44,878 bases of DNA from a virus, in IMG/VR virus record IMGVR_UViG_3300023172_000052, positions 1 through 44,878 of that record. One strand, given 5' to 3'. A program made the translations under genes and the position numbers. The notes under the pieces were generated by a model, which worked only from the letters and a program-made list of their open reading frames with translations, was not told where the DNA came from and did no database searches. This document shows, in pieces, positions 5,003-35,100 of the stretch; within the stretch, counting starts at the first letter, position 1, and each line of letters begins with the position of its first letter.

Positions 5003-5808
5003 CCAACTATGTCAAGGGGAGGGAGTTCGTAACGAGTGTGCAACTCATCGATGAGCGCCTGTTTCTTTTTGTCTGCGTCGTCCAAGATTGCACGACCGTT
5101 GAGGGTGACACCACCAAGCATTTGTACACCATCGTACTTGCTCAGGTTTTGACCCCATTGCTGTTGGAACAATGCCTCGGTGTAACCTTTCAACCATTCG
5201 TTGTTGTAGGCATCGGTATATGTTTCTGGGTCAATCGGCATAGTACAATCTACCAAGATGTAATTATCATTGGTAAGAGTATTCTTCCAATCAAAATCCA
5301 GGAACAATTTGTTTTGGTGGACAGTCCAACGTACTCTTCTATGAGCTGTAGAATTGGTAACCCAATCCAAGGTCTCAAGATACTGAGATGTCATGAAATA
5401 GTGGAGAATCTGACCATGAGCAAATCCATAGATATCGTTCAGGAAGATTTGATATTTGATATTGAAGATATTGCCAGGTACAGTTGTCGAACCATTGAGA
5501 CCTGTATACACATGGTTGATACCTGTGACTCCAGGAGGAAGTTCAACATAATTGTCTAGTTCTTGCCACGCTGTAGAACCCATGGTTGTAGCACCTTGAG
5601 CAGCAGTTCTAATCGCTTCAGTCACCTGAATACGAATGATGGTTTGGTAAGAACCTTCATAATGAAACTCTTGGAACTGATGGATTGCCTCTTCAACTAG
5701 GTCATCCAGTTGCTCATCGCATACGTTAATGTCGATGGCAGGATAACCCAGTCTACGAAGAGCATACGCCTTCAGTTCTGCTTTGGTGGCGGGTTTAGTA
5801 GCGGACAT
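4999..5808 (-). CDS. 13: Neck protein gp13 (head completion)
   Basis: The 269-residue product has the start expected of cyanophage gp13: MSATKPATKAELKAYALRRL, then DEQLDDLVEEAIHQFQEFHY. The middle contains LNDIYGFAHGQILHYF and VRWTVHQNKLFLDFDW, and the C-terminus is helical (KGYTEALFQQQWGQNLSKYD, ILDDADKKKQALIDEL). T4 gp13 (309 residues) completes packaged heads by forming the neck with gp14. The gene is followed directly by gp14 with a 4-nt ATGA overlap, as expected for partners. Its ATG lies 6 nt after the fibre stop. I see no strong Shine-Dalgarno. Identification rests on recalled family sequence plus synteny with gp14, gp15 and gp16. Confidence 0.87.
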   Translation of the reverse strand: MSATKPATKAELKAYALRRLGYPAIDINVCDEQLDDLVEEAIHQFQEFHYEGSYQTIIRIQVTEAIRTAAQGATTMGSTAWQELDNYVELPPGVTGINHVYTGLNGSTTVPGNIFNIKYQIFLNDIYGFAHGQILHYFMTSQYLETLDWVTNSTAHRRVRWTVHQNKLFLDFDWKNTLTNDNYILVDCTMPIDPETYTDAYNNEWLKGYTEALFQQQWGQNLSKYDGVQMLGGVTLNGRAILDDADKKKQALIDELHTRYELPPLDIVG

Positions 5809-5814
5809 TTTTTA

Positions 5815-17200: not shown

Positions 17201-18417
17201 GGGAAACCATATACATTCTGGTTGAAAACAACGTTACCCAGGTCAAATGGAATAATTGTGTTTTGAACTGCTTTGGTATCTCTGGGTTTCTCCAGGTCAA
17301 TATATGTTGGTTGCAGAGTTTCCATCTGATAACCACGTACATATGCTTTGCCAGGACCAAACTCCACAGCATACAACGAATCGCCTGCAGCATTACCTTG
17401 TGCAGTTACTTGCCCAAGACTATAAACACCACCATTGAATCCATCGTTTACAGATTCACGCATTCTGATTTGGAAATCAGAGACAGTATAATCACCAGAC
17501 TCATCGTATGTTCTGGCAGCAAGCGTCTTTTCAAGTTCAGAGTATGAAGTACGTTCAACAATCTTCTGAACTTTAGAGTTAGAGATACGAAGAAGTTCTA
17601 CAAAGTTCTTATCAGAGTCATCATCAAGTGCTTTCTTGATAAGAGTGGTGCTAATTTTGAATCGGTGAGCACCAGGAGCCGAATAGTTTGAAGTACCAGC
17701 AGCGTTATCATTCAGGGATACATCGTCTTCTGAAGTGATAATCGATTCGGAGATGGATAGACCAACCCTATATGAGGGGTTGTTTCCATACTGGTCAAGA
17801 AGAATATACTGAGAGGGAACGTCAACAAAGTAACCTCTAATAAAGTAAACACCTTGGTTTACATATGCAGCAGAACCAACCGCAGTACCATTCGCAGGAA
17901 GAATCTGTGCAAAAGGAGAACCAACTTCAATCAGGGTTGTTCCAAAAGTAATATCATTACTTGCAACCAACTGTTCATTATTATCGAACGTATTCTTGGT
18001 TGCCGTCTCGTCGTCAGACTCAATATACTTAACGTAAAGAGTAATGTACCCCTTTTCAGAATCTGCCGCAGAAAGGGTGTACAGAACTTTTGCTTTGATA
18101 CCAGTATTGAGACCAGTAATAATTTTCCCTGACAGTTGGGACCTATACTGCTCAACTGACGCACCCAAGAAACTTTCTTGAATCAGGATAGCACTAACCG
18201 ACAAGTCATAACCGACCTGTCCAGGGATGACCATTGCACCCTCTTTGAACAGGTGCTGACCAATCGACTCCACCTGATTCTGCATGATGCTCTGCATCGT
18301 CGTGAGTTCCCTTGCCTGAATAGGGAAACCAGGACGGAACAGAACTTTGTAGAAGTTCTTATTCTTGTCAAAATCGTCGTAATACGGCGTGACGTTAAGG
18401 TTGGTATTCTGCGGCAT
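11260..18417 (-). CDS. Large virion structural protein, DUF4815-type N-terminus
   Basis: The 2385-residue protein opens with NVTPYYDDFDKNKNFYKVLF, followed by RPGFPIQARELTTMQS and QVESIGQHLFKEGAMVIPG. This is the hallmark of the DUF4815 family of T4-like cyanophage structural proteins. The rest is predominantly beta. At least five short modules of the type GxTVxGxTSGAxAxV occur, near residues 489, 860, 1443, 1505 and 1899. A module with IKIGDEIISY and VVERGANNTTASAH lies after about residue 2000. The C-terminal part (VARLTNTSRSIKVMFSAYRP) resembles a jelly-roll-like end domain. Located directly after gp8, it fills part of the T4 gp9-gp12 position, so a peripheral baseplate or fibre-carrying role is likely. 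The stop overlaps the next start by 4 nt. The exact function is unknown. Confidence 0.8.
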   Translation of the reverse strand: MPQNTNLNVTPYYDDFDKNKNFYKVLFRPGFPIQARELTTMQSIMQNQVESIGQHLFKEGAMVIPGQVGYDLSVSAILIQESFLGASVEQYRSQLSGKIITGLNTGIKAKVLYTLSAADSEKGYITLYVKYIESDDETATKNTFDNNEQLVASNDITFGTTLIEVGSPFAQILPANGTAVGSAAYVNQGVYFIRGYFVDVPSQYILLDQYGNNPSYRVGLSISESIITSEDDVSLNDNAAGTSNYSAPGAHRFKISTTLIKKALDDDSDKNFVELLRISNSKVQKIVERTSYSELEKTLAARTYDESGDYTVSDFQIRMRESVNDGFNGGVYSLGQVTAQGNAAGDSLYAVEFGPGKAYVRGYQMETLQPTYIDLEKPRDTKAVQNTIIPFDLGNVVFNQNVYGFPNFSGSSVTNSYQTVELYDTATVTPGDVTGNVIGYARIAASEYASDPDATFSNTDDEYQSNLFDINMFTVVELSSAQTIGQGSLVVGATSGARGFIVDGISASTQMRLYQITGNFAKNEVIHVDGREKGSIAHLYKYEFTDARQMVARDETTNNIEFTSDLVLNDIVQLRGDAFQLGASGTTLTGFNSNFGADLRPGDYIYFNASNYVIVDRVNPASLGTTNYTNIINTTTQVATCIAANAPADGTYSPVLRFRPSLQGRENADLFSPMPRESIKSISDESMTVRRTFDNISISSNAFTVTLPENEQFSSISRENYSLVVTGGSGVGDVIEVQDGTPGVAGYATFTSSDRTTLQVTGLTAVTSVKLTATISKNVTTKKIKSNNSMFVLKVFKTIQELDNQLFGLQYSNLYGTRIEDKEISLGLPDGYRLRAVYESYDDNDPVIPSMQLVEPAFFAVGSVIVGRTSGARGLVVDFASTTLRLTFVTLSGTFIGGETIDGLNSQQESISALINDNEGSIVVGSKDVTDNYYLDNGQRGMFYDCSRLVRVAGAAAPIRKLKVVVDWFSHQSTGDYFAGQSYTGIAYKDIPRFKNIELRDVLDFRPAVKPLYSGTGTVGSPAYVNCSTYDFKSRVFDIGGLVNATVFDIPKIDTDFRCDYDYYLRRIDKVFLTADRQFQVVKGVSDDNPQPPEDIKNAMFLALMRHRPYGYNPDRDVYIKKEDNRRYTMRDIGEIEQRLSQVEYYTALSMLEADTNNLKITDANGKDRFKNGYIVDDFSSHNVSDLQHEDYRASLDFANGECRPTHYTTNVSLEFQPDLSTVQKTGPVLTLPYEEMLAIQQPYASRVENVNPFNVFTYIGRIDLTPASDDWVDTKRLPARVENIEGDFSAVARENNVDQNGFAPVQWNSWQTDWTGETVGGTRRYLSHTNIGGGHWLGGTGWFAYVHEARDITVTQKQSRTGIRTRIVPRIDRKSMGDTLISQTSIPWIRSRNIGVAIARLKPRTTFYPFFDGQSVVNYITPKLIELIKDPNTDSRTNATPFVIGETVTGETSGVKLKVVAPNDGYKWNPYDDSELPDSYSSETVYLNVDVEAMATQVNGDYYGNIQVGEVLVGTSGAKAVVKARRILTDRIGQYYGTLFIPDPGNDANPRWATGKRVLRMTTSETNSFLTGAVSSSADVTYEASGTLNTVQENILAIRNADIVKDTVTDTQTITSTRSEVRQIGWWDPLAQSFLVDDEGGVFVTSAEFYFYTKDTNIPINCQIRSMVNGYPSNKILPFSDTTVKPEDVQLSESAAIPTKFTFRAPVYLQQGVEYALILFTDSNEYQVWISRMGDVDVTGDRTISEQPYAGVLFKSQNASTWTADQYEDLKFNLYRAKFSTTGATATFTNARLGLGNGGVLHLRNNPIQTHKPDQIFVLDGVGKTFTVGARIYQKTSNALATITAVNTVTNPNQITVTDISGAFQVGSNTGGVVTYSLVSSRSEGSMTILAAGLTGDFEVGTTITGQTSGATAEVVSWDSVNRLLTLKFVSKTFTDNETVEATNTGGTVVSGVIDGANHTVTGDSVESFVSITPTFDQSTKKVTVLHSNHGMHDTRNNVVIQNVESEVNPTYLTAGVDDDDTTIPINDARAFHTVVNGLGISASNPGYIKIGDEIISYNQVSADGKSITVVERGANNTTASAHAESDVVHCYNLDGIPLIEINKTHNQISSPTLDTYELVTQSVARLGVVSGGANASATQNIPFEVLTPTVQNLVLPKTEMTARVGTISGSSINDGITTTQNSFVDDGVLDDVLLNEQNYFASPRMVCSQVNEDEELNGQKSLRLECALQSSVDNVSPYIDLDRVSLITTSNRVNNPSNPTLSKQPTGDPHSAVYLTKVARLTNTSRSIKVMFSAYRPNGAEIDVLYKVVAPGSGQELDEIGYEYFPTADATIPSSTDQVMYSDYEYEVTGLEFSAYQIKIVMRSANQAYPPQIKEFRAIALAS

Positions 18418-18421
18418 TTCT

Positions 18422-19954
18422 TTAGAACTCGATTACGATTTTAATATCTTCGATTTGGTCGTTTGCACGACTAATGGTCCGTCTATTATCTATGTAAATT
18501 ACGTTACCACTATTTCTCTCAACTTCAGGTTTTGCATAACCAGAGGTAAAACGCATACCCAAGTCATACTCAGTGTTGTTAATAACACGAGATGATGTAT
18601 TTGGGATAGCTGGGAAGTTAACGTCGGGTTCACCAGAAGCACCTGAACCAAGACCAGTGATGGAGTTGGAACCATCAAACTCGTTCAGAGAACCAGTTAC
18701 TTCAGGGAAAATTCCGTCAACACGGTTCTGATAATACTTGAGAACTTTTGTAGTGGAGTTCCAAGAAACAACTCTGCCTCTGGATGTGACAGATTGACCA
18801 CCAACAATACGAGTTTGCTGGAGAGTTTCGTCTGCAATAAAATTGCCTTGGAATGTGGGTGAGAAGATTGTTGCTTTAGTAGCAGATACGGTCAAATCAT
18901 CAAGAAGTTCTACAGTACCAAAGCGCAACGGGTTAACTACAAGTCCAACACGACGATAATCGTTATCGATGGGAAAATCGCCAGCACCCTCAGCATAAGA
19001 GAGTTTAGCGTTTACCATGACACGATATGCACCAAGTTCAATCAGGGGGTCTGCTCCGTGGCCACCTGGGGGAGGAATAACAACATCGATGACGGCACCT
19101 GTTCCAGTACCAACACCAGAGATGTTATCAACTGTAATCTTACCAAAGGTGTATCCAGTACCACCAGAGGTCACAGTTGCGGAGATAACTTTACCACCGT
19201 CAATAACAATAGAAACACGTCCACCAACACCGTCACCATTAATAGTAACGTTGTCATATGTACCGTTGTTATAACCAGAACCAGAGGAAGTAATTACAAC
19301 AGTATCAATCTCACCAGGAACTGCGTTTGTTTTAACCGAAAGGTCTTGAAACACAGGCATATAGTCACTGGAGAAAAACTTTAGAACCTGTGCCACTGGG
19401 ATGGTGTAGAGATACTTCCAACGATAACCATCAGCAGTAGAGATGATAGAAGTAGAAGTACCAGTTGGTTCGATAGTCGAGGGTTTTCCATTGGGGTCAG
19501 AAGGAGAAGTCCCGTTGTAAATACACTTATAAACTTGATAGTTCGAGTTTACAACATAGAAATCCGAATCATAAAGTTTGGTCGCACCAGAAGATGCAGT
19601 GTTAGTAGGAGAATAGTCATGACGATACATGTCATAAGTAAAACCCAATCCACCAGTAGTCTTCTCGGGGGGAGTCCAGTCAATACGACGAACAACCTGA
19701 ACCGTATCAGAGGAAAGGACACGCTTCATGGAAATCATGTCGTCATACGAGTCAGAAAACTCGAAGAACGAGTCCACTGCTTGCGGAGGCGAGTTTTCAT
19801 TATCCCACGCTTGAGGTCTACCAATAAACAGATACAATCTGTCTCTGGTGGAACCTGCCGCTGTATCACTTTGGTTTGGGTCGGGACCTTCCAAAGATTT
19901 AATGAATTTTTTCGCAGAAAAAATTCTAAATTGGTCCGTAAGAAGTGCTGACAT
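18422..19954 (-). CDS. 8: Baseplate wedge subunit gp8
   Basis: The product matches T4 gp8 along its length. Near the start it has LYLFIGRPQAWDNE (T4 has FITFGRSEPW), then VVRRIDW (T4 PRRDW), then DGYRWKYLYTIP (T4 DGYVWEYLFEIP). It ends in GNVIYIDNRRTISRANDQIE, equivalent to T4 GEMIYMENRPPIIMAMDQTE. In T4, gp8 is a wedge protein of the baseplate assembling with gp7, gp10 and gp6. At 510 residues it is longer than T4 gp8 (334). Much of the extra length is a glycine-rich beta insertion around residues 220-310 (SGSGYNNGTYDNV, GGTGYTFGKITV, VIPPPGGHGAD), related to modules in gp14 and the giant protein. An AGAGGAAA sequence lies about 20 nt before the ATG. The next gene begins 4 nt after the stop. 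The comparison with T4 is from memory. Confidence 0.9.
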   Translation of the reverse strand: MSALLTDQFRIFSAKKFIKSLEGPDPNQSDTAAGSTRDRLYLFIGRPQAWDNENSPPQAVDSFFEFSDSYDDMISMKRVLSSDTVQVVRRIDWTPPEKTTGGLGFTYDMYRHDYSPTNTASSGATKLYDSDFYVVNSNYQVYKCIYNGTSPSDPNGKPSTIEPTGTSTSIISTADGYRWKYLYTIPVAQVLKFFSSDYMPVFQDLSVKTNAVPGEIDTVVITSSGSGYNNGTYDNVTINGDGVGGRVSIVIDGGKVISATVTSGGTGYTFGKITVDNISGVGTGTGAVIDVVIPPPGGHGADPLIELGAYRVMVNAKLSYAEGAGDFPIDNDYRRVGLVVNPLRFGTVELLDDLTVSATKATIFSPTFQGNFIADETLQQTRIVGGQSVTSRGRVVSWNSTTKVLKYYQNRVDGIFPEVTGSLNEFDGSNSITGLGSGASGEPDVNFPAIPNTSSRVINNTEYDLGMRFTSGYAKPEVERNSGNVIYIDNRRTISRANDQIEDIKIVIEF

Positions 19955-19982
19955 TATTTGACGGGTATTTTTTCCTCTAGTT

Positions 19983-19990
19983 TATTTATC
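19983..19990 (-). promoter_or_regulatory. Late promoter GATAAATA upstream of gp8
   Basis: The minus strand reads GATAAATA immediately after the TAA of the 1181-residue gene and 28 nt before the gp8 ATG. It fits the NATAAATA late motif known from T4-like cyanophages and gives gp8 and the downstream wedge genes their own late start. Confidence 0.7.
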
Positions 19991-22900
19991 TTAGTTGTCG
20001 TCACGTACCAAAACATCATATTCGATGGACTTGATTCTCCAGGAAGCAGCAGTACCAACCAAACGCTCCCCACCAAGGACAACTTCACCGACAGCGCCAG
20101 AGCCAGTTGTGTCTCCTGGGTCGTTGGTGAATGTTACTGTTGGGTGTAAAGTAGAACCAGTCAACTCTTTCTCATAACCATAACCACCAGCAGTAACAGT
20201 AATACTAGAAACTTGGTCTCCAGATGCAGTCATTGTTGCAGTTGCAGTTGCTTGAATATCTCCAGCATTCTCAATCACGACTGACGGAGCTGCTGTATAG
20301 TCAAGACCAGGACTTACAACACGTACTTCAACAATCGTGGAATTGTGTGAGAACGTATAGAAAATACCACCATCACCGATTAGTGCGTTACCAGTATCAT
20401 ATGGAATTGGGTTAATAACTGTAAGAATGTGATTATCAGCATCCCATTCTTCTACAGTTGCACGAACGAGCGATTGGTCTCCTTCAACGAGTTCTCCGAC
20501 TTGATAATTTTGCTGATTACTATTATTAAGGTCAAGTTGGATTTTAAGTCTGGCAACGTGCTCAGTACCACTGTACAAACCGCCTGCTGCAGCAATACCT
20601 GCATATCGGAAGGGGATAGAAGCGTCCTTAATTTGGTCACCAACTGCAAGTAGAGTCGTGTTTTGTCCACCTTGAGTTTCCTCCAAACCATAAAGTGAGT
20701 TGTACAGACCACCATCCAGAGAAATCTGGTTCTCGAAATCTGTACCTGTATTTACGAGGTCAGGAATACCATCTCCCTCACCATCATTTTCATCATCATC
20801 TTCTAATCGAACGTTCTCTAGAACACCGATTGGTTCTGTCAGAACAGGAATAGATACGCCAGAGTCACCTGCAAGGTAAATCAGGACGTGAGGTGGATAC
20901 GACTGGTTTGCCGAAGAGGGCAGACCCGCATCAAACGAAACAATATTTTCTTCAACTTCTGACCTACCAGCATCAATGAATGCAAGTTCGTCAACTTCAA
21001 AGACCAGGAACAATTCTCTAGTGTTTGGATTCCAGTCATATACTTTTGCAACTTTGTTGTTAGCGTTTTCAATTCTTCTGACAATTCTATCGCCAACGTT
21101 GAACTGATACTGAGAGATACCATCGGGAGTATTGTTAATAGTATCTAGAATAACTCTCTGGTCATATCTAAAGTTAGTACCTCGGGTACAATCAAGAAGC
21201 CTATTACCACTCTTAGAGGTATAACGAATTAACTCCCTGTTAACAAGAATAGTACCAGAACCAGGAAGTGCTGCTGTAGAGTTTAATATAACAGTTGGGT
21301 CGGTATCAGTTAGAGACCTAACCAATCCCATAAGGAAGAACTGAGAAGAGTTGAAAGAAACTCGGTTTCTTGTTACCCTCTTTACATTAACCAGTTTGGT
21401 GAAGATAATATTTGGAGGATTTGTATATCCAGAACCAGGGTCTTCAATATCAATACGTGTAATAACACCTTGGTCAATAACTGCTCTACCTTTAGCACCT
21501 TTACCGCCACCGCCTTGAATCAAGATATATGGTGCTTCCTGATAGAATTGTCCAGGGTTATCAATAACAATATTTGTTAAGATGCCAGTTGTGTCAATAG
21601 TAGCAACACCTTCGGCACCAACACCACCACCACCTTGGAAAATAAGTTTTGGTGAGGATGCATATTCTCTACCAGCAGAGGAAATTGACAAACCAGTGAC
21701 ACTTTGAGTTACTGGTACGAGTTGTGCTCCAGTACCACCGCCACCAAGTACCTTTACTTCAGCAGGACCGAAGTATCCGTCACCGCTGCTAACCATCTTA
21801 ACGTAAGAGATAGCACCGAGACTATTCAAAATAGCTTCTGCCTTAGCACCATCTGGAGTATCCTCATTGACAGTTGGGATTGGGTCTCCATATAGAGTGG
21901 GGTTACCAAAATATGTTTGACCAATACAATATGGATATTGTGGTGCGCCAGACCCATCAATAGTCAAGAAGTATGCATATGTTCCTGAGGGGAAGTCTGG
22001 AGTGATGCAGAAACGACCGTTATGTTGGTCCAGGTCACCAATGGTCTCGTCCCAAATATAGTCTTGAGTAAACGCACCCATTGGGTAGTTGTCAACGTTT
22101 ACTCTGTTACCTTTATTGATATGGTTGTGACACCAGTAGTACAATCTACTGGGAGCGTCTACAGGCACTTCAAACTTAACGTATCTATCGGATGCAGCTG
22201 CCATCCCATCAACATATTCAAGCATCGACACCATGGAACCATCCAACCAATAAGAAACACCCTTATTGTAGTGTCCGCCACCTTCATGGTCGCCATCATC
22301 TGTGGCAGAGAACATGACATGGTGTTGGCGAATCAGACTGCCTTCCAGACCATAGTCTTCGTTGGTTGGGTCATTCTGGTCAAAGATGTATGTACGTCCA
22401 CGCTCAAGGTTGATATACGGTTGTTCAACGCCATCAATGTAGAATACACCAGTTGCTTTACCTTCAGTATTATCAACACCAACAGTAACAATGAATGTTG
22501 TAGTTTGTGTAGTATCCCCACTAATCAGAGGACGATTACCATCAATCTCAACACCTTGCTTATGTCTATAGGAAGAGTGCATTCTCTTCCAAATGATTTG
22601 GTTGCCAGGACCAGAAAGTTGGTTGATATCATTATCTAATGTCAGACCACTATCAAGAGTATCACCACCATTTGGTTGGGTTGGGTTTGCATAACCATAT
22701 GGTCCATAGATGGGATAACCATCGTATGAAATACCAAGAATCTTAGAGTGACCGTCTGGGTGTCTTAGATGGTCTCCTTGGAACCCACTGTTCTGATAAT
22801 ATGGTCCAAGTTCAGAAACACTATCATCTTCCCTCCATGCTGGGAGGAATCTTGCATCATGATAGGTGTATAGACCCTCTGGTGTTACGTGACCACTATA

Positions 22901-23536
22901 TTGGTCTTTGTGGAGGAAATCAAACCTAGCAGCATCCAAATCAAACAGTGCTGGAGAATTTCCACCGCCATCAAGAATGGGTGATGAAATCGGTGTTCCA
23001 TTTGAGAGAATACCAATCTGTCCCTGAGAAATTTGTTCAAATACAACTGCGGGAACTTCTTTACCACCTCTATAATAGACATTATGATGATACGACTGCA
23101 CCAAAACAGGTGGCATGCCAGGATAACTTCCAATCGGTGCAGGGTCAGGAAGATTATTAGATTTGATTGTCAGAATCGGAGGATTCTGGAAAGAAAAACT
23201 TGTTAGTGAATATGAATTGCTAACTGCGATTTTGGAGATATCTATACTCGTATCAACCTTAGCACTATCTTGTAAAGGTGTAATTACAAGACGAAGAGGG
23301 TCATATCCTCTTCCAGACTCAAGAACTCTAACGTGAACAATCTTACCAGAGATGTCATTAATTACAGGCCAAAGAACTGCGGGCACAGTTGGAATCCCAC
23401 AGTTTTCAATCCTTAGAATAGGCGCTTGTGCAGACGTATATCCCGACCCACCATTTTCAACCACAACCTCGCTAATGCCGAAAGATTGATTGAAAACGGG
23501 TTTGAGAATAGCACCAGAGCCAGGAACAGTCGCCAT
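19991..23536 (-). CDS. Large virion protein with YHYH domain split by a nested cupredoxin-like domain
   Basis: The 1181-residue protein begins with a glycine-rich strand module (GGSGYTSAQAPILRI). A YHYH-type domain follows: GLYTYHDARF, PDGHSKILGISYDGYPIYG, and MHSSYR near residue 320. The same domain resumes only at about 485-560 (GAFTQDYIWD, DLDQHNGRF, TYAYFLTIDG). Between them, about 342-480, sits a cupredoxin-like insert with RQHHVMFSA and YYWCHNHINKGN. It has His, Cys and a second His but Lys where the Met ligand would be. Three GGGG-type modules follow (575-720), then a CTRG module (LLDCTRG), a WD-type module (VYDWNPNTRELFLV) and two more glycine-rich strands at the C-terminus. It lies just before gp8, so a baseplate-associated role is plausible. 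There is a 15 nt gap to the 398-residue gene and no clear Shine-Dalgarno. Confidence 0.8.
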   Translation of the reverse strand: MATVPGSGAILKPVFNQSFGISEVVVENGGSGYTSAQAPILRIENCGIPTVPAVLWPVINDISGKIVHVRVLESGRGYDPLRLVITPLQDSAKVDTSIDISKIAVSNSYSLTSFSFQNPPILTIKSNNLPDPAPIGSYPGMPPVLVQSYHHNVYYRGGKEVPAVVFEQISQGQIGILSNGTPISSPILDGGGNSPALFDLDAARFDFLHKDQYSGHVTPEGLYTYHDARFLPAWREDDSVSELGPYYQNSGFQGDHLRHPDGHSKILGISYDGYPIYGPYGYANPTQPNGGDTLDSGLTLDNDINQLSGPGNQIIWKRMHSSYRHKQGVEIDGNRPLISGDTTQTTTFIVTVGVDNTEGKATGVFYIDGVEQPYINLERGRTYIFDQNDPTNEDYGLEGSLIRQHHVMFSATDDGDHEGGGHYNKGVSYWLDGSMVSMLEYVDGMAAASDRYVKFEVPVDAPSRLYYWCHNHINKGNRVNVDNYPMGAFTQDYIWDETIGDLDQHNGRFCITPDFPSGTYAYFLTIDGSGAPQYPYCIGQTYFGNPTLYGDPIPTVNEDTPDGAKAEAILNSLGAISYVKMVSSGDGYFGPAEVKVLGGGGTGAQLVPVTQSVTGLSISSAGREYASSPKLIFQGGGGVGAEGVATIDTTGILTNIVIDNPGQFYQEAPYILIQGGGGKGAKGRAVIDQGVITRIDIEDPGSGYTNPPNIIFTKLVNVKRVTRNRVSFNSSQFFLMGLVRSLTDTDPTVILNSTAALPGSGTILVNRELIRYTSKSGNRLLDCTRGTNFRYDQRVILDTINNTPDGISQYQFNVGDRIVRRIENANNKVAKVYDWNPNTRELFLVFEVDELAFIDAGRSEVEENIVSFDAGLPSSANQSYPPHVLIYLAGDSGVSIPVLTEPIGVLENVRLEDDDENDGEGDGIPDLVNTGTDFENQISLDGGLYNSLYGLEETQGGQNTTLLAVGDQIKDASIPFRYAGIAAAGGLYSGTEHVARLKIQLDLNNSNQQNYQVGELVEGDQSLVRATVEEWDADNHILTVINPIPYDTGNALIGDGGIFYTFSHNSTIVEVRVVSPGLDYTAAPSVVIENAGDIQATATATMTASGDQVSSITVTAGGYGYEKELTGSTLHPTVTFTNDPGDTTGSGAVGEVVLGGERLVGTAASWRIKSIEYDVLVRDDN

Positions 23537-23551
23537 TTAACTATTACGCAA

Positions 23552-24748
23552 TTAGACTATGTTGATTGTGTTGCCCATCGAAGAGTGAATCGTACACTGA
23601 TAATACAGTGTAGAAGGAGCATCCATAGGAACAACAAATGTAGTAGTTCCTGTAGAAGAACCACTAACACCATCTGTATATGCCGTACCACCGTTAGACA
23701 CTCTGATTTGGAATGGGTGAGAAACACCAGTACCGTTAATAAAGTGGTAGGTAAATCCTCTATAAAGATAGAGAACAGGGTCTTGCACAGAACCTGTAAA
23801 ACCAGGACCAGAGAAGGTATATGCTGATGTACCAGCAGCTGCTAGTGCCCAAGTAAGAACAGGACCAGCATTGCCTACCCAGTCACTACCATTATGGTAC
23901 AGCATCGTACCAGAAGCAATCGGGTCAGGGAAGGATGTTTCATCAACATCACTCAAACCACCAAGAGTTGCTGACCCGATAGGTCCACTATACGTAATAG
24001 TTAATACTTTGTTTGCTACAGAAGTACTAATATAAGTACTACCTTGAATTGTTACTGTATCTTCTGATTGAGTTGCTGTTGCACTACCTGCATCAGAAGC
24101 AATTACAGAGAATCCATCTCCACCACCAGCACCACCACCAGTTTCAATAGCAGGTGCCCAAGCAGTACCAGACCACTTGAGAACGTTACCAATAGAAGGT
24201 GTTGCGGTAGATACGTTGGAGAGGCTTGAGAGTGGTTTCTCTTCGTCAATCAACTTAATCCAGTTACCACCATGGGCAAAGTAACCAGAAGCAGTTTCAT
24301 GGACGTGGGCAAACATACCGTGGTGGGTAGATGCCAGAGGAAGGTCAGATTCTGTAGCGTAAGCACCTTCCCACTTCAGGTTACCGTCTACACCGTCAAT
24401 ATAAACGTTGGATGAACCACCAGCATTAAAGAGGATGTCTCCACTACCCTCTGCTTCAATGATGATGTTTCTACTAGAAGACGATACAATCTTAAATCCG
24501 TTTGTGTCAAAATGCTCCAGCATCCTGGCAACGGAAAGTTCTCCAGGTTCATATCTGGATGCAGTCGCATTCCAAATCAGAGGTTCTCCATCTTGGGCAC
24601 CCTGAATATTGATTTGCGAGTTAGTACCATCACCGATGGAAGCATACAACTCGGTGAAGTTATCATTGATTTTAATTGCACCAGAGCGTAGGTTATCACC
24701 TGTTCCGTCGTTAGCAACAGAACCTACGCCAATCGCTTGTTTTGGCAT
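23552..24748 (-). CDS. Structural protein: gp9/gp10-like N-terminus and C-terminal cupredoxin-like domain
   Basis: The 398-residue protein starts with GSVANDGTGDNLRSGAIKIN, then FTELYASIGDG, closely resembling the T4 gp10 N-terminus. The middle has fibre-type repeats (LSNVSTATPSIGNVLKW, LSDVDETSFPDP). The last 90 residues look like a cupredoxin: SHPFQIRV, then YYQCTIHSSMGNTI. His344, Cys385, His388 and Met391 match the His-Cys-His-Met ligand set of type 1 copper sites, although C-x2-H-x2-M is tighter than the plastocyanin C-x2-H-x4-M. The similar C-x2-H motif in the 1181-residue protein has Lys instead of Met. There is no signal peptide and no free-standing plastocyanin gene, so a virion adhesin or stabilising domain is likelier than electron transport. 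A TAGAAGACA leader precedes the ATG. Copper binding is inferred. Confidence 0.8.
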   Translation of the reverse strand: MPKQAIGVGSVANDGTGDNLRSGAIKINDNFTELYASIGDGTNSQINIQGAQDGEPLIWNATASRYEPGELSVARMLEHFDTNGFKIVSSSSRNIIIEAEGSGDILFNAGGSSNVYIDGVDGNLKWEGAYATESDLPLASTHHGMFAHVHETASGYFAHGGNWIKLIDEEKPLSSLSNVSTATPSIGNVLKWSGTAWAPAIETGGGAGGGDGFSVIASDAGSATATQSEDTVTIQGSTYISTSVANKVLTITYSGPIGSATLGGLSDVDETSFPDPIASGTMLYHNGSDWVGNAGPVLTWALAAAGTSAYTFSGPGFTGSVQDPVLYLYRGFTYHFINGTGVSHPFQIRVSNGGTAYTDGVSGSSTGTTTFVVPMDAPSTLYYQCTIHSSMGNTINIV

Positions 24749-24757
24749 TGTCTTCTA

Positions 24758-25216
24758 TTAAAGCTGAGTTGTAGTTAAATTACCAGAGTCATCCACACCA
24801 AGTTGGAATCTAGTTCCATTAGGAGATGTCAGTACAAGTCCACTAAGAGGTTTGAAAGAACCACTAGGAACATCCCATGCCAAAGTTTGGTCTGCTGTCG
24901 GAGCAGCAGTTGTAAGGTCAACATCACTAAGTTCTCCGACGCTACCACTATTGTCGAGAATGGTTCTCCACTGCTGACCATCATCACGATGCAGTCTTCT
25001 GTCATCCTCAGTCTGAATCAACCGACCAGGAGCATCAGAATTTACATCAGGTACTTGGGTTGCATCTGCAACAGTACGACTATAAAAGTTTGTACCATCA
25101 CCAAGACGTTGATAAATCTCTCGAAGAGCATTATCAATCTTGGTTGCAGCCTGACGAATAGTATCGCCAGTTCCATCGTTGGGTGCTGCCCCGTAGTTTA
25201 GTGGACTTCTAGGCAT
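24758..25216 (-). CDS. Short structural protein with gp9/gp10-like N-terminus
   Basis: The 152-residue product opens with APNDGTGDTIRQAATKID followed by REIYQRLGDG. This resembles the start of T4 gp10 (DDGTGDYLRKGGIKINENF, from memory) and of gp9, a region used for baseplate attachment. The C-terminal half has a fibre-type repeat, LSDVDLTTAAPTADQTLAWD, also seen in the neighbouring 398-residue protein. Both share NDGTGD and GDGTN, so they are probably paralogues. At 152 residues it is far shorter than gp10 (about 600). It may be a minimal adaptor or fibre stub. The gap to the next gene is 9 nt. No catalytic residues are apparent. The attachment role is inferred from similarity. Confidence 0.75.
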   Translation of the reverse strand: MPRSPLNYGAAPNDGTGDTIRQAATKIDNALREIYQRLGDGTNFYSRTVADATQVPDVNSDAPGRLIQTEDDRRLHRDDGQQWRTILDNSGSVGELSDVDLTTAAPTADQTLAWDVPSGSFKPLSGLVLTSPNGTRFQLGVDDSGNLTTTQL

Positions 25217-25233
25217 GACAGTACTTTTTTAGT

Positions 25234-25241
25234 TATTTATA
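25234..25241 (-). promoter_or_regulatory. T4-type late promoter TATAAATA
   Basis: The minus strand carries an exact TATAAATA, the T4 late consensus, directly after the stop codon of the 288-residue gene and 17 nt before the ATG at 25216. It probably drives the 152- and 398-residue genes. In T4 this element is read by the gp55 sigma factor with the sliding clamp; that mechanism is assumed here. Confidence 0.75.
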
Positions 25242-26108
25242 TCAACCGCCAAGAGCGGGTCTTTGCTCTCTTGTGAATGGACCAAAGATATATGGATAAA
25301 CTGGATTTGACTCAGCATCTTGTGATAAGAAATATGCATAAGTACCGTTCGGGTACTCGGGAGTCTTTTGATAACGACCATTGTGCTGGTCTAGGATACC
25401 CAACTCAGGAACATACTCATAATCCTGAATGAATGTTCCTGCAGGAAGTTGAGAATAGTCATAGATTCTACCTTCAAGAACTTCACTTCTCTTCCGATAT
25501 GAAGATGTCATTCTTACAATATCAGACAGTTGGTCATCTGGGTCTGAATATGAGAAGGGTCCATAAACAGGATATCCATCAAAACACCAACCTACAATTT
25601 TAGAGTGTCCATCGGGGTGTCTAAAATTGTCTCCGTTATAATGTGTAGCGGAAAAATATGAATTTGAATTGATAACTGCTTGACCCCAGCAATGATTTAG
25701 GAAATCTGAAGAGTGGTAGTGATATTCACCACTTGCTTCTGGGTGTCCCCCACATACATCAACACCATAATTGGTTTCGTTAAAAACCGCGTCCCAAACA
25801 AAACCTTCTGGTGGTTGAATCGCTCCTCCAGGGAGTGGTCCAGGACCAGCAGCGGGATTGAAAAGCACAACACCATTTAGTGCAATACCTTGAGGACCCA
25901 AAGTGGTTTCATCAGGGTTTGATGAGTTTTGCCCTCCTCTAAATGGAAACACAAAATTATGTGATTGTGCTACCACCACATTTGGATTACCAACGAAATC
26001 GTTGCTTCCTAGGGGCGTGCCATATCTAGCTGGGTCAGGGAGACCGTTAGAAGTAACAGTCATCTGACCCAGAATGTTGATTGTTGCAGATGTTTGTGAA
26101 ACTGCCAT
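25242..26108 (-). CDS. YHYH-domain virion protein
   Basis: This 288-residue protein is almost entirely one YHYH-type domain (Pfam family YHYH). The signature GEYHYHSSDF lies in the middle, followed by PDGHSKIVGWCFDGYPVYG, MTSSYR, then LDQHNGRYQKTPEYPNGTYA, and it ends at a PYIFGPFTREQR segment. It aligns throughout with the C-terminal 300 residues of the giant protein immediately upstream, so the two look like a tandem duplication. Unlike the giant copy it keeps both motif histidines. The biochemical role of YHYH domains is not known to me. The location among baseplate and fibre genes suggests a virion component. No signal peptide or membrane segment is visible. The gap to the giant gene is 22 nt. 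Confidence 0.85.
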   Translation of the reverse strand: MAVSQTSATINILGQMTVTSNGLPDPARYGTPLGSNDFVGNPNVVVAQSHNFVFPFRGGQNSSNPDETTLGPQGIALNGVVLFNPAAGPGPLPGGAIQPPEGFVWDAVFNETNYGVDVCGGHPEASGEYHYHSSDFLNHCWGQAVINSNSYFSATHYNGDNFRHPDGHSKIVGWCFDGYPVYGPFSYSDPDDQLSDIVRMTSSYRKRSEVLEGRIYDYSQLPAGTFIQDYEYVPELGILDQHNGRYQKTPEYPNGTYAYFLSQDAESNPVYPYIFGPFTREQRPALGG

Positions 26109-26127: not shown

Positions 26128-26135
26128 TATTTAGG
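26128..26135 (-). promoter_or_regulatory. Weak late-promoter-like octamer CCTAAATA
   Basis: The minus strand reads CCTAAATA, overlapping the stop of the giant gene and 19 nt before the ATG at 26108. It differs from TATAAATA in its first two bases. It may drive the YHYH gene, but the match is weaker than at the other boundaries. Confidence 0.3.
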
Positions 26136-29100
26136 TGAAGCTACTGGACCAGATAGTAGTCGCGTCGAAGTTGGGAATGGTGTACGCGGTGACTTCAGGG
26201 GTCGGCGGCGTCTCGGGATTCTCAAGGTCATCAATAATCTGCGCGGTAAGAGGAATGACCTCAAGTTGCGAATCAGTGAATCCTTCTGCACGTTGCTGAC
26301 GTGTTGCGTTACCGATGATGTACGGGAAGATGGGGTTACCATCAGCATCAATTGTCATAAAGTATGCATAGGTGCCGTTGGGGAACTCAGGCGTGACAGA
26401 GAATCTTCCGTTGTGGATATCCAGGTCACCAAGTCCGTAGACGTACTCATAATCATTGATGAACGAACCAGGCGGCAAAGTGACGAAACTATGTGTCCGC
26501 CCGTAAGCCTCAGTAGCGAGAAGTCTGTACGAGGAGGTCATACGCTTGACACCACTGGTATTTTCTGCGCTAACGCGATATCCGAAAGGACCATAGATGG
26601 GATAACCATCAGATGCCCAACCGATAATCTTAGAGTGACCATCAGGATGACGATAGAAGTTGGACTTGAAGTTTGTGTCACTCAGGTAAGGGGTAGAGCG
26701 ATAGAAGTTTCTTGTCCAGCAGTTCATCAGGAAGGAACCAGAACGGTAGCTGTACTCGCCAGATTGCTGGTCGGGCACGCCGCCGCAGGCGTCAACGCCG
26801 TACTTGTCTTCATGGAAGACGCGGTTCCAGTAGAATCCTGTAGGTAGTTCCAGAGTTGTGGTTGGGAGAGTTGCCGAATCATCAAATGCAGTGCTGAGAA
26901 CGACACCGTTGATAGCAACACCGACAGGACCAATGCCCGTATGCATCGGGTTGGAAGTATTGCTTCCTGCGCGATAAGTGAAGGAATACTGTTCGTTCTG
27001 AGCGATAATTCCAAGACCAAGGTCGGGGAACTGTGAAGAACCCAGAGGAATGCCATTAAGCGCGGGAGCGGGTGTTCCAGCAGTATTAATCTCAAGCAGA
27101 GTTTGATTAGCGTTCAGGTCAGGGACAGTAGCAGAGTTGTCAACGCTGACGAAAGTTGTCTCGGGATTGAATCCAGAGATAACCGTGGGCGCGAGCACGC
27201 CCGCGAGCACGCCACCTTCGCTATCTAGAGTCTGAATACCATCTGCTGCAGCAGTGACATCGCCAGACTGTGGAGGATTATTTGCAGGAACTGCAGGAGC
27301 GATGATGTCTTCCTCCAGAACCTGAGCAGTACCCTCAGCAGGATATGAATTGATGTCGGGATATACATAACCCTCAGGAACTTCAGTGTCGGGATTTACG
27401 GATGCATAACCGTAGTTTGTACCGCCTTCCTTAACATCAATTCTCTGAACACCAACCAGTGCCTTGAGTTGTCCATCGAAACCACTTGTCGAGTCAACAC
27501 GGACGACGGGTCTGGTTGTGTAACCATCACCAGGCGAGGTAATTTGTGCGTCTGTAATACGTCCTCTGAGAATCTGAGCACTTGCTGCAGCATCCTTACC
27601 AAAGATAGAACCAAGGTAGTCGAAGGTAATGAGCGAGTTAGACGATTCAATGATAGCGATTTCTCTATCTTCAGTTTCACCCTCAATGTCGAGGAGGTCA
27701 CCAGCTTCCAGAGGAGGAACGACGGTCGCCGCCACAACGTCTGCGTCAGAACCAATGTAAGAGAATCCAACGAATGTAGAACCGAATCTAGGAATCTCCG
27801 AGAAGATGATTCTAGAACCAACCAGTTCAAAACCAATTCCAGGTTCCTGCAGAACGCCGTTGAGAGAGACAACGATGTTGTTTTCTGGACGAATAACGGT
27901 AGACTGTACACCTTCCGTCAGGGTCAGCGAGTAGAAGGAATCTTCAAACAGGAGGTTGAAGGAGGAGCGCAAGGAGTCAAACTCGAACGAGATGTCATTC
28001 AGGAAGCGCAGTTTGCCAACATAGTAACCCGTGAAGGAAGAACCAGACTCGGGTGCTTCGGTGAACTGGATTTCATCGGAGAATGCCGTGTAAGCATTAG
28101 ATGCACCAGGAGGTTGAAGAACACCATTGACGAAGGTGAGCAGGTGCCCTGCGGGGTCAGGGAAGTAGGGGTCGCCGTTGTTGGATGTAATCTTGAAGTT
28201 GGTCTGTGTACCGTCAAATCCAACAAAGAATCTCTTGACTCTACCCTCAACAGAAACCACATCAGTAATTGCTGCCTTATAGGAGTTAGGACCAACAATC
28301 GTGTCATACTTAGTAGCAGTGCCCTTGACATCAGTGATGTAAAGTCTTTCATACTGGATGAAATCTTTCTTACTGACGACTGTAGCAGCGAACTGCGAAG
28401 CGACGTTTGTAACGACGCTAACTGCACCTTGACCAACTGGGTTACCACCACCAACATAAGTAGCAACGATGTCACTTGATTGGAAAGCACCCTCAACCAT
28501 GGATACGTAAAGCGTATTTGTATCAGTATCCCACCCAGAAATAATACCTTCAACACCAGGCTGTGGGATGTTGTCGATAATCTTGTAAAGCGTACCACCA
28601 AGAACAAAGTTATCGCGTGTAACATTGTTGAATGTATCTTCGTAAGGAGTAACTGTAAGTGTTACATAACCCTGCGAGAGAATCTTGTCACTGAGAGAGA
28701 TGTCACCAGAACCATTATGCTTGTAAGCATCGATGTAGAAGGAAGACTTATCAGCGTAGATGACCGAGGTTTCTTCAAATGAACCCTGCAAACTATCAGT
28801 ATCAATCGTGAGTTTACCGCCAGTGTTATCAAGAACAGCAGCGTTGTTGTCATAGTATTGAGTGATGATACCAGTAGTTCCAGAATCATATCCCTTGAAT
28901 GCTTCAGAAGCACCGAAGGCACCGATTGGGCGGACCACGACCATTCTGTACTCAACAGAGTCAACAGTAGACTCTTCAGAGTTAGTCATGTCAATGAAAG
29001 TTCTGCCAGTAGTCCAAGCAACAGTTCCATTGTCAATGATATCCATGTACTTGTAGTTGCTATCTTCGTAAAGCGCGTAGATAGTACCTGTAGTATTGAC

Positions 29101-32100
29101 TTCATTGACATCAGTGACTGTCATGCCAAGGGTGTAATTGTCAATTAGGTTCGGGTCAGTCTCTGTGATGGTATAACGCAGACGAATCAGCATCTTCTGA
29201 ACATCAGCAGCATTGCTAAAGATAGTTCCAGATTCAGCAGATGAACCACTAACCGTGCCATAGATGTATTCGTTAGGAATCAAACCACCGCCCAGAGGCG
29301 TGGGAACGATACGAGAGTTGGGTTTCACATATGTCTTAGACAGATACGTAATACCAGTGTTAGAAGCAACGGTCTCATAGTAATTAGAATCCAACCACTG
29401 ACTCTTATACTTGTTCATGATATCGAGAATCTGAGGCATATAGTCAGCAGAACTATATCCATTCATGTCAGACTTGTAGAACGCGGGGAACGATGCTCTG
29501 GTGGAAGGATTGACCAGGGTTTCGTCCATGGACTGCTGGTAGTAGCGATAGAGTTCATCCAGGATGAACGCCTTGATGTTGTACTCCTTATTTGTGTAGA
29601 ACCGCTGGCCATCGCTATTTGCCTCGTATGCATCCAGTGTTCCAGTGTTCAACTTAGCACCCCAGATGAGGATACCGTCCGTACCGTTACCAGCACCGTT
29701 GACCAGAACTTCCGCCATGTAGTTGGAAACTCTAAACTCAGCAATACCGAACGGAATGTTGAATGTAATGTAGCAGCGATACCAACCATCACCATAAGGA
29801 ATGACGTTCATGTCATCCACGGTCATGCCACCACCAACAAAGTTGCTGGACTTCTCACCACTAATCAGGTTGAAGTTGAAGAATGCGTAGGAGTAGTTTG
29901 ACAGATATCCAGCAAGACCACTCATACCCCAGGATACGTGGAATCTTATCTGACCATAACCTGCTTCCTTGTAGAAGCAAGAATATGTAAACTTCTGGGA
30001 GGAACCTTCTGCACCAGTATCGAATGTGCTGGAAGTATTATCGAAAGTAATACTGTTACCATCATACGTGCTGTAGGTAGAGAGTGGATAATTAAAGAAG
30101 ATGACCTTTTGTGTGGTATTGTTACCAGGAATCCACTTGTCAGCAGTCAGAGAACCATTAGGTGCTTCATACTGAGTGCCACTAATGCTGCCACCGTATC
30201 TGTACCATCCGCCAGGTGTCTGGTAGGAAGGAAGCATCATGTTTTCAGAGATGTCACCCCAGATAGTATTGCTCAGAATATTGTCAACAGAGCCTTCATT
30301 ATTAAGCAGGTTGGGCAGAGTACGAAGAGTTGCCAGAGTCTCTGTATTGTTATACGTCGTAGAACGTCCAGGTGTAGTTCTGGTTACAGTGTTCAGGAAG
30401 TCTGTCTGCGAGTTATCTGCTTGGTAGATTGTCTGATAGATGATATCCATCATTGTGGTGATGGATTGTGCAACTTCAGCACACAACGGCAGGTCGTCAT
30501 CCAGAATGATATCATGGTTTCTAACCTGAATCTCATTGTGAGTACCAGTCTTAATTACGAAGTTGTTACGCATGACTTCAATTGCCATGTCTCTAGCAGC
30601 GTTGATTGCCCAGAGAGTTTCGGTAACTTCAGTTTCTACGTGGCTCAGTGCGATAGGATTCTGAGTGCGGTCAACATAAAGTGCAGCAGCATCCCATACT
30701 TCATGGTTTCCACCATTTCTCAGGTTGTATGCAACAGCATCGAGGATATCCTTGATGTCATCAACACAGTTAGAGTTACCGCCAGGAATTTGCAGTGCAG
30801 GATACTCTGCAACCAATCTAGCAACAACTTCTTCAGCAATAAAGTCGCGGTTGATGCCAATCAGGTTACCAGCATCTTGGAACTTATCACCAGGGCGAGA
30901 AGTGAGAGGAGTTGTGATAACGTCGTAAACAATGTCATCGGTGATTGTATCAATCAGACCCTCATACTCGGTTGTATCCCACTCATTGATACCCCACTCT
31001 TGCTTGACAGTTTCTGCAATTTCTTCCTTATAGTAGTGCTCATTAAACAGGATTGCATTCATTGCGCTGACAGACTGGAGTCCGCCAGGTGCAAGTTGCT
31101 CAACAGGAAGTGTCCAGAGAGTTTCGATTGCAGTCTTAACGTCTGCACAATCGCTATCAATGTATGTTCCACTAGAAACATCATGGGTGACCGTAGTGTC
31201 AATATAAGCATCTTCAGTGGTGTACATCGCAACATAATGGTCGGGAGAAGTTTGAACCGAACCTTGAGTTTGCAGCAACTGGTTGATTGCCTTGTGCGCG
31301 AGCATCTTGGCATAGTTTAGAGCATACAGAGTAGCGGGAAGTTGGTCTTCAACGTGAAGTACTTGCTTATTCGCATCAATGTAAGTCTCCAGAGCAATTA
31401 CAGTATTGGAGTTACCACCAGTCAGGAGGTCGGTGATAAGTGCCTTAATCATCTCCTTAACGTCTCTGATGCACTTATTACGTCCATCAATGCTACCACC
31501 AGGATATTCAAATGTCTTGTAAGAGACTTGGTTAATTTCGTAAGTGAAATATGCGTCAAGAGCACCTGCTGTTTCTTCAGCGATATAATCTTGATTCTTC
31601 CAAAGTGCATTACCAGCATCGACAAATCTGTCTCCAGTAGGAGCAAGAATTGCATTCATTTGGTCGAGCATCGTATCAACTGCCGCCTTGACATCAGCAC
31701 ACTTACCAACAGCAACAACCGAGTTAGGAAGGGCGCTGGAGAATGTGTGTGCATAATTACCGCCAGAGACAACTGCGCCAGCTGTAGCAGAGACGAACCT
31801 ATGTTCGTACTGAGAAGACGATGCTGCAATACCAACGTTAATGTTAATCGTGGTAGGTCCTACGCTATTAATCTTCAGAGCAGTGTCATATGCAGGGTCG
31901 GAAGCACGGGGGTAAGTGTGGGTGCTAGCGTAGTTGTCAGAAGAGCATGTGAATGTCAGAGAGTTAGCAGCAAGTTTGATGCTTGTACCAACAGGCAGCG
32001 AATGTGTACCGATAGTCAGTTGCAGGTTACCAGTTGCAGCATTGTAATAAGCATTGCTTACGTCGTAACTAACGATAGGTGAAGCACCTGCATTAACCGT

Positions 32101-35100
32101 AATCGTAGTTGCTGTAGCACCAGTAATAGTAAAGTACTTCTGGTAGTTCGGGTCAGTGGTACGAGGATATGTGTGCAGTGCGTTACCACCGTCCATAGCA
32201 CATGTAAATGTCATGGAGTTGGGAACGAGGTAAATCGAACTTCCAACAGGCAGAGAGTGAGCACCGATAGTGATTACAGAATCACCAGTTGCAGCATCAT
32301 AAGTTGCTGTTGTTGGGGTGTAAGATGCCTGTCCACCTGCAGCAGTATCAGTCGTAATACCAATCGGAGGTACGACAATGCTGTTGCTGTAAACCGTTTG
32401 AAGGGTTCCATCGATAGCATCCTTACACAGGTCCTTAATTTGCTCATGGGCAAATAGTGACTGTAGAAGTTGAAGTCTTACGTGAAGGATACCACCATTA
32501 GAATCCAGATAGAACCTAACTGCTTGCAGAGTCTTCTCATTACCACCAACCTCAAGGTCATCAGCAACTGCGTTAGCAATCTGAACGAGGTCAGTACGGC
32601 ATCTAGTTGTACCTGCATCAGAAAGACCACCATTATTTCTTGGCATCAACTGAGTCAGTGTAGGATACTCATTAAGCATCCGACCGATTGCCTCATCAAC
32701 GATAACATTGATGTTATCTCTAATCAGATTTGCAGCATCTTTGAATCTGTGACGGTCGTCACCATCAATCTGATAGGTAACAATATAATCATTAACGTTA
32801 TCGACAGTACCAGCAATAAAGGGAACCGAAACGTAACCAGAGAAAGAACCACCAGAGTAAATGTAATCAGGAAGAACTCTGGTAATACCGTTCAGGTAGT
32901 TAGTACCAGTATTTGCCTGTTCGATTGTCTGGGTAATAATATTGAAGTGGTCTTCAATTGCAGTTTCGACGTTTGCACAGAAGAGTTGGTTGTTAGAAGC
33001 GGCCAGCGGGTCAATCGTGATGGTAGTATCACGAGAAACATCAGTATTGGTATACAGGGTGCTGTAAACAACAGGCCACTTAGAGGGACGAACTCTACCG
33101 TTGATTTCACCAGTTGTGGTGATAGACAGAGGATATGTAACAGCATCAGAACCACTGGGGTCTTGCAGAGTATCGGTAATAATCTGCATCAAGGTATCGA
33201 TTGCAGACTCAACAGCAGCACAACGAGGAGATGCTGGGTCAATTGTAATTGTAGAATCGATTGTGGGTGTTAGACCATGGGAACCAACAGTTGTGGAAGG
33301 TTGACCCTGCATGATTTCTGTTGCCAGGTCACGAGCAGAGTTGATAATCCAAACAGTCTCTGTCAGGTTAGTGGTGATATGGTTGAAAGAACCACCATTC
33401 AAGAACCACCATGCCGAGTCCCAAACATGGTTGTTACCACCATGCTTCAGGTTAGTTACGACGGAGCGAAGTACATCCTTAATATCGTCGGAGCACTCTG
33501 TAGTCAGAGTTGCAGTAGAACTCGGGAATTGAGCAATACCTCTATCAAGTGCTTCAGCAGCGATGTAGTTGATATTAGCTTCAATCTCATTTGCAGCATC
33601 GATGTAAATGTCATCTACAGCATTCCATGCATTATAGGTCTGAGAACCAATGTTATTCTCAATATTGTCAATACCAAACTGGTTTCTCATGGTTGCAATC
33701 GCGATGTCTTCCGCGATTCTCATGACATAGATGGTCTCAGGAACTTCACCGTCAACATGACTTAGAGTTGCCAGAGCAGGATTGTTCTCGTCCTCAACAC
33801 GATAGTATGCCGCAGCATCCCAAACATAGGAGTTGCCACCACTTCTAATAGATTTGGTCAGAGCATCGAGAGCAAGAACGAGGTCTTGCTTACAACGTGC
33901 TCCACCATCATCATTCGGGAATGTGAAGTTGTTGGGGTGACCAGCACCAGTGTTCTTAAAGAATTCAACTGCCTCATCAGCAATGATGCTAGCATTAGCA
34001 TCAATCTGGTCACATGCATCGTAGTAACGGAAAGGAATGGTGGTGTTTACATACTCATTGCCATAAGCATAAGTAGGTACACCAGACCAATCAGTGGTGT
34101 CAGTATCATTGTTCTCACCATCAAAGTGAGTCAGCAGAACAGTGTTTGTATCACCTTGGAAGATACCCGCACGAGGAGTGAAATCTACATCATAACGTGC
34201 ATTAGTAGAAACACGGACCTCATCAATATAACCAATAAAGAGGTTTGCGTTTGTATAGTCTGCACCAATTCTAATTGGTCTTGTAGAACCATAATCAGAG
34301 GGGTCAGACTGTGTAGGACCTTCTTGAACACCATTCAGGAACATTCTGATGGAGTTATTAGAGCGGCAAACTGCAACATGATACCAAGTGTTAGTGCTAA
34401 TGTTGGTTGTACCAGTAATTGTAATACCACTGTTACCAGCGATATAGGTAAGAATGTCGCCATTCAGTGTCAGAGTTGCTGCTCTATCGGAAGATGCAGA
34501 ACGCATATCAAAGATGAGTTTAGAACCAGCAGCAATAGAACCAGGACGAATCCATCCTTCAATCGTCCAATCACCAGTACCAAAACCAAATTCAGTATGA
34601 GTTGCTACATCAACGTAGTCTCCAGTACCATCTAAGTACAGTGAGGTGCCACCAAACTTAGACTGAACGTCAGAAATCTTGGCATCACCAGTGAAACTAA
34701 ATGAATGTAGGTAGTCTGCACCTCTTGCTTGCTTACCGAGATAGAACCACTTTCTACCATAGTTTGTACCAATGACTTCTGCAGTTGCATTTTCTGCATA
34801 GATAGTCTGACCTGCGGTAACAAGGTCACCTTCAGAATCGAAGAAGGAAAGTTTGTTAACCCGTACTTCCTCATCTGTGATGAAGTTTCCACTTTGTCCA
34901 CCAAACAGAATCTTGTAGTTTCTGAGGGTTTCACCAATAGTAAACCCTGTCCCATTGACGTTGGCTGGATTGTACGTCAGATAAGTGTTTCGTACAACTT
35001 CGTTGCCAGGGAACTTATCATTAATCGCAGTCTCATTATCTGCAACATCGACAACTTGAATCTGAGATTGTGATATATCATCCAGAATAGTATTCGGATT

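Follow-up and report, generated by a model that had tools for sequence, protein, structure and literature searches.

Amicyanin, a type 1 copper protein of methylotrophs, works as a free periplasmic electron carrier, and the cupredoxin domains of three-domain copper nitrite reductases (PDB 2dv6, 6tfo and 6hbe) are parts of an enzyme, where they pass electrons to a catalytic copper. To our knowledge, no cupredoxin domain occurs in gp9 or gp10, the baseplate adaptors of phage T4; the metal sites on phage tails known from T4 include zinc. Iron has also been described, held by HxH sites on the tail fibres of T4 (gp37) and of Alteromonas phage R22Y (PMC11705849). Cyanophages carry a cupredoxin of their own in the auxiliary gene petE, whose product, the soluble protein plastocyanin, stands on its own and is thought to support photosynthesis in the host (PMC2984593). 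A search of the open-access literature on phage structural proteins, tail fibres and baseplates brought up no account of a virion protein with a cupredoxin domain. Here we argue that the C-terminal ~104 residues of a T4-like cyanophage baseplate-fibre adaptor probably form such a domain, with a mononuclear type 1-like copper site.

The window—the whole stretch of DNA analysed, 44,878 nucleotides, spanning IMG/VR virus record IMGVR_UViG_3300023172_000052 from position 1 to 44,878—holds structural genes of a T4-like cyanophage: a gp15 sheath stabiliser, neck proteins, gp8, baseplate wedge proteins and a giant. The last of these is a virion protein of 6215 aa, encoded by a single ORF (26131-44778, minus strand). 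A megablast search with positions 18000-26100 returned 199 records, all of them cyanophages (Synechococcus, Prochlorococcus or named "Cyanophage"), with 75-77% identity among the matches listed. Neighbouring virion proteins contain YHYH domains (PF14240; 25242-26108, 19991-23536 and 26131-44778, all minus strand), those of the giant being seen by eye only. These domains have many conserved His and Tyr residues and are possibly metal-related too.

The adaptor ORF runs on the minus strand from 24748 down to 23552 and encodes 398 aa; the plus-strand reading of 23552-24748 in the same frame is interrupted by stops. PHROG 677, a "baseplate wedge tail fiber protein connector" whose description does not mention copper, matches the adaptor over its full length (E 9e-116). 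Residues 3-53 (24590-24742, minus strand) form a T4 gp9/gp10-type region, which scores 36.8 bits against Pfam T4_gp9_10_N (PF07880; cut-off 25), and phmmer against the PDB finds T4 gp10 at E 3e-8 (adaptor residues 3-42) and T4 gp9 at E 0.0025. A gp8-like gene lies nearby, as judged by Pfam and PHROG matches. Both the N-terminal attachment region and the baseplate gene neighbourhood thus place the protein among the T4 gp9/gp10 adaptors, as a preliminary description had proposed when it likened the N-terminus to T4 gp10. Orthologues occur in hundreds of T4-like cyanophages, annotated as gp9 in S-SM1, P-SSM4 and P-RSM4 and as "T4 gp10-like" in Syn9 and P-TIM40; a virion proteome is published for S-SM1 (PMC3037559). 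The adaptor corresponds to T4-GC 398 and the adjoining wedge protein to T4-GC 399. Beside the adaptor lies a gene for a 152 aa protein (24758-25216, minus strand) with a gp9/gp10-type N-terminus and no cupredoxin domain.

What follows the attachment region falls into two parts. The middle of the adaptor, residues 54-294 (23867-24589, minus strand), is probably fibrous, and residues 120-225 match tail-fibre PHROG 9729. AlphaFold modelled residues 1-294 too poorly for a fold search (pLDDT 60, pTM 0.27). The C-terminal part, residues 295-398 (23555-23866, minus strand), is where the adaptor departs from T4 gp9 and gp10, with which it shares its N-terminal ~50 residues, its gene location near gp8 and the names of its orthologues. 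Given residues 285-398 together with 52 relatives, AlphaFold predicts an all-beta domain of nine strands with a mean pLDDT of 93.2 and a pTM of 0.84.

That the domain is cupredoxin-like, as had been suggested at the outset, and so a Greek-key beta sandwich, is borne out by structure and profile searches alike. Among the matches listed, nearly all Foldseek hits in the PDB are copper proteins, including three-domain nitrite reductase, rusticyanin, laccases, amicyanin, pseudoazurin with an amicyanin loop, AcoP and plastocyanin. Normalised by query length, the TM-scores to these are moderate (about 0.4-0.54), which tells against the copper-site reading. VIA-align gives best matches that are again cupredoxins (Z 8.7-10.6 among the matches listed), headed by nitrite reductase 2dv6 with Z 10.6 and an rmsd of 2.2 over 92 residues. 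The three-domain nitrite reductases are therefore the best structural match, and they are the best sequence match too: searched against PDB sequences, the family profile finds nitrite reductases at E 3.6e-4 and 4.6e-4, plastocyanin at 9e-4 and amicyanin at 0.013. In Pfam, neither Copper-bind nor Cupredoxin_1 matches the adaptor above the gathering cut-off, and 53 relatives yield weak matches, 13 to Copper-bind (best E 2e-4) and two to Cupredoxin_1 (best E 4e-4).

Four residues of this domain make up a candidate type 1 ligand set: His344, in the motif S-H-P-F (codon 23717-23719), the thiolate ligand Cys385 (23594-23596), His388 (23585-23587) and the axial ligand Met391 (23576-23578), all on the minus strand. 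All four had been named in the preliminary description, with exact numbering. In the model they are residues 60, 101, 104 and 107, respectively. By DSSP, residue 60 lies directly ahead of strand 62-65, residue 101 is the last of a strand, residues 104 and 107 sit in the loop that follows, and residues 108-113 form the final strand. In the predicted structure this placement relative to the strands is the classic layout of a type 1 copper protein. The refuting condition named at the outset, a predicted structure that sets the four residues apart, was checked by this strand placement, from which we infer that the side chains would converge on one point.

Alignment brings the same residues into register with known copper ligands. 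In the profile alignment, Cys, the second His and Met of the family fall on the C-S-I-H-P-Y-M and C-T-L-H-P-W-M loops of nitrite reductases, and the leading His of T-H-G-L-S-I-H, which we take to be their type 1 His, pairs with the first His of the family. Sequence, alignment and strand placement thus agree on the pattern His...Cys-x(2-4)-His-x(2-4)-Met at the ligand positions. The short C-x2-H-x2-M spacing had been raised as a ground for doubting metal binding, a doubt that falls away: it is the natural loop length of amicyanin (CTPHPFM, the loop that was put into nitrite reductase in PDB 2vmj, as its title states) and recurs in both top nitrite reductases of the profile search (CSIHPYM and CTLHPWM), 6hbe among them. 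In blue and red cupredoxins the gap from Cys to His is two to four residues (PMC4059628). Amicyanin therefore shares with the adaptor domain the fold, the His and a loop of identical length, and differs from it as a free carrier differs from the C-terminus of a virion protein.

Two surveys that were blind to the ligands bear on whether the site is under selection. The first searched viral contigs with the pattern VPxDAPxxLYY, which contains no ligand, and yielded at least 108 unique domains. Among the matches listed, 64 of 108 have all four ligands, and the remainder have none (26), only Met (10), only the first His (5) or Cys and Met (3); Cys and the second His are lost together almost without exception. 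Reduced to 70% identity, 32 of 59 domains among the matches listed keep the full set. Across the 946 column pairs of these 59 listed domains, five of the ligand pairs rank as the top five (phi 0.93, 0.84, 0.77, 0.76 and 0.72) against a median phi of 0.04, and the sixth, first His with Met, reaches 0.48. The sequences share ancestry, and a weakly resolved tree of the listed domains, built without the ligand columns, implies at least eight changes of the full set, with only one to three well-supported independent pairs of coupled change, too few for significance.

The second survey chose adaptors by their N-terminal motifs, from loci ranked by similarity to proteins first found through the cupredoxin domain. 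It comprises 72 complete ORFs, of which 58 carry the domain (one, at locus L319, was missed by the pattern and assigned by eye) and 14 do not. Every one of the 58 keeps the His and C-x2-H-x2-M, as do all 20 domains that remain at 70% identity; a ligand-less version appears in none of the 72, and the kept set spans sequences below 60% identity. With one incomplete ORF included, the copper-type Cys is the sole cysteine in 52 of 59 domain-bearing adaptors, as it is in the 398 aa adaptor of the window. Named phages with the full set include S-SM1, P-SSM4, P-RSM4, S-ShM2, Syn9, P-TIM40, S-WAM1 and the podovirus P-GSP1. The full type 1 set of the preliminary description thus extends to all adaptor domains surveyed, and the sequences indicate that, for the most part, the four ligand residues persist or disappear together.

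A second such domain lies next door. In the adjoining wedge protein (23536-19991, minus strand), residues ~360-481 (22094-22459) form a cupredoxin-like stretch that interrupts a YHYH domain (profile E 7e-9); with the profile run over the full record, cupredoxin-type domains turn up only here and in the adaptor. His, Cys and His are present in this copy, and Lys replaces the axial Met. The corresponding wedge protein of S-SM1, P-SSM4, P-RSM4 and Syn9 has C-x2-H-x2-M, with its Met. The Lys of the window's copy counts against the copper-site reading, as does a longer Cys-His loop in S-SKS1, where our match (locus L212, 3001-3276) reads C-TTGG-H-GG-M, two extra residues standing between Cys and His.

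Beyond these phages the domain recurs in several settings. A tblastn search with the C-terminal domain found 324 phage records, made up of cyanophages and four marine viruses, and other marine phages carry the domain in fibre-like proteins, as does the podovirus P-GSP1 in its own set. It is also recognisable by fold in predicted proteins of giant viruses, and it occurs in rare bacterial surface proteins. For instance, one Bacteroidetes genome encodes secreted collagen-like proteins with a full-set domain, with matches in only four of 150 genomes of the order. Bacteroidetes surface proteins at loci L084 (1364-8209), L236 and L242 combine collagen-like GxTG repeats with a full-set copper-type domain. 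A cellular origin was considered and set aside: the relatives in metagenome-assembled genomes are mostly phage contigs filed under bacteria, as judged by their neighbouring genes. One contig of this appearance, filed as gammaproteobacterial (L081), encodes at 4575-6986 a subtilase-like protein of 803 aa with its own C-x2-H-x2-M cupredoxin-like domain, beside another such protein.

The survey also turned up a ligand-less clade in other phage proteins (L133, L203, L168 and relatives), where Tyr-Ser-Gln-Leu and similar residues replace the ligands. These sister domains have the same sequence frame, so the cupredoxin fold does not need metal, and they count against the copper-site reading and in favour of a metal-free alternative. 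In that alternative the sandwich has been put to new use as a module for structure or adhesion, its four residues are kept for packing or by descent, and the virion holds no copper; the scarcity of copper in surface seawater is a further point in its favour. Yet a Cys, two His and a Met that are kept as a unit are hard to explain by packing, the Cys and second His being lost together and the set surviving in 58 of 58 adaptor domains, and the adaptor's sole Cys is the very residue that would serve as ligand. We consider the metal-free alternative unlikely.

We thus return to the copper-site reading. By analogy with characterised relatives of the same fold and ligand set, the domain would bind a single copper ion tightly. 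As to what the metal would do, we tentatively suggest that it acts as a clamp within the domain, holding the ligand loop in position near the C-terminus; the clamped loop might in turn set the adaptor surface for docking to a fibre or to the cell. A clamp is favoured over an electron carrier because no redox partner is visible in the adaptor or its neighbours. The T4 virion has 18 gp9 chains and 18 gp10 chains. Should that stoichiometry be valid here, there would be about 18 predicted sites per virion, plus those of the adjoining wedge protein.

It is conceivable that such a site is a switch rather than a clamp. A type 1 copper that changes redox state, through light absorption in its Cys-to-copper band or through host reductants, could gate irreversible adsorption and would give a physical basis for the light-dependent adsorption of cyanophages; conservation of the full set fits this too, since the axial Met tunes the potential and is unneeded for binding. 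P-HM2 is unable to adsorb in darkness (PMC7112961). Several full-set domains occur in this dark-blocked phage, against none in P-SSP7, whose infection proceeds in the dark, but the comparison is tiny and is confounded, as it is also one of a myovirus with a podovirus. Adsorption of S-PM2 is likewise light-dependent, yet S-PM2 has a single, degenerate domain. The latter case leaves a light switch as a minor rival only, and with no redox partner in sight we judge redox gating to be quite improbable.

Contact through the metal itself would be a further use, in which a copper-uptake or copper-binding component of the host surface recognises virion copper and so aids attachment. The proposal transfers to copper the "Ferrojan horse" idea put forward for iron, and iron-bearing phage fibres provide a precedent (PMC11705849). 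The presence of the domain in fibre-like proteins, in a podovirus as in other marine phages, agrees with such a role. Type 1 copper, however, lies mostly inside the protein, with a single His exposed, and is hard to hand over; we know of no host receptor for virion copper, and the adaptor is not known to us to contact the cell. We would give this proposal a slim chance at best. A chance resemblance, with His, Cys and Met scattered in an unrelated beta domain, is hardly credible: that no Pfam cupredoxin model matches the adaptor by itself speaks for it, whereas conservation, ligand coupling, fold search and profile search agree against it, both ligand-blind surveys contradict it, and Pfam Copper-bind independently matched the 13 relatives noted above.

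Taken at its broadest, the copper-site reading would place functional type 1 copper centres, tens of them per virion, in the baseplates of most T4-like cyanophages, where they would work in adsorption as a redox- or light-gated switch or through copper-mediated contact. We regard this broad form as rather unlikely, and we know of no virus in which blue copper has a role in adsorption. A more restrained statement is that a blue-copper-type domain built into the virion likely adds copper, predicted from sequence and model, to the known metal sites of phage tails. Like the iron HxH fibres, the adaptor would hold metal on the tail through conserved side chains, in a predicted single-chain type 1 pocket as opposed to iron between paired His residues; and like cyanophage plastocyanin it is a cyanophage-encoded cupredoxin, from which it differs in that plastocyanin is not part of the particle.

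The domain, then, resembles the blue copper proteins that serve photosynthesis and respiration and belongs to a virus that is itself an ocean cyanophage. As the four copper-holding residues are kept across its relatives, very abundant cyanophage particles may carry copper on their tails. Because the domain is found in hundreds of cyanophage records, copper-bearing virions, if real, could matter for attachment and for the poorly explained light-dependent adsorption of some cyanophages, as well as for copper speciation in surface seawater.
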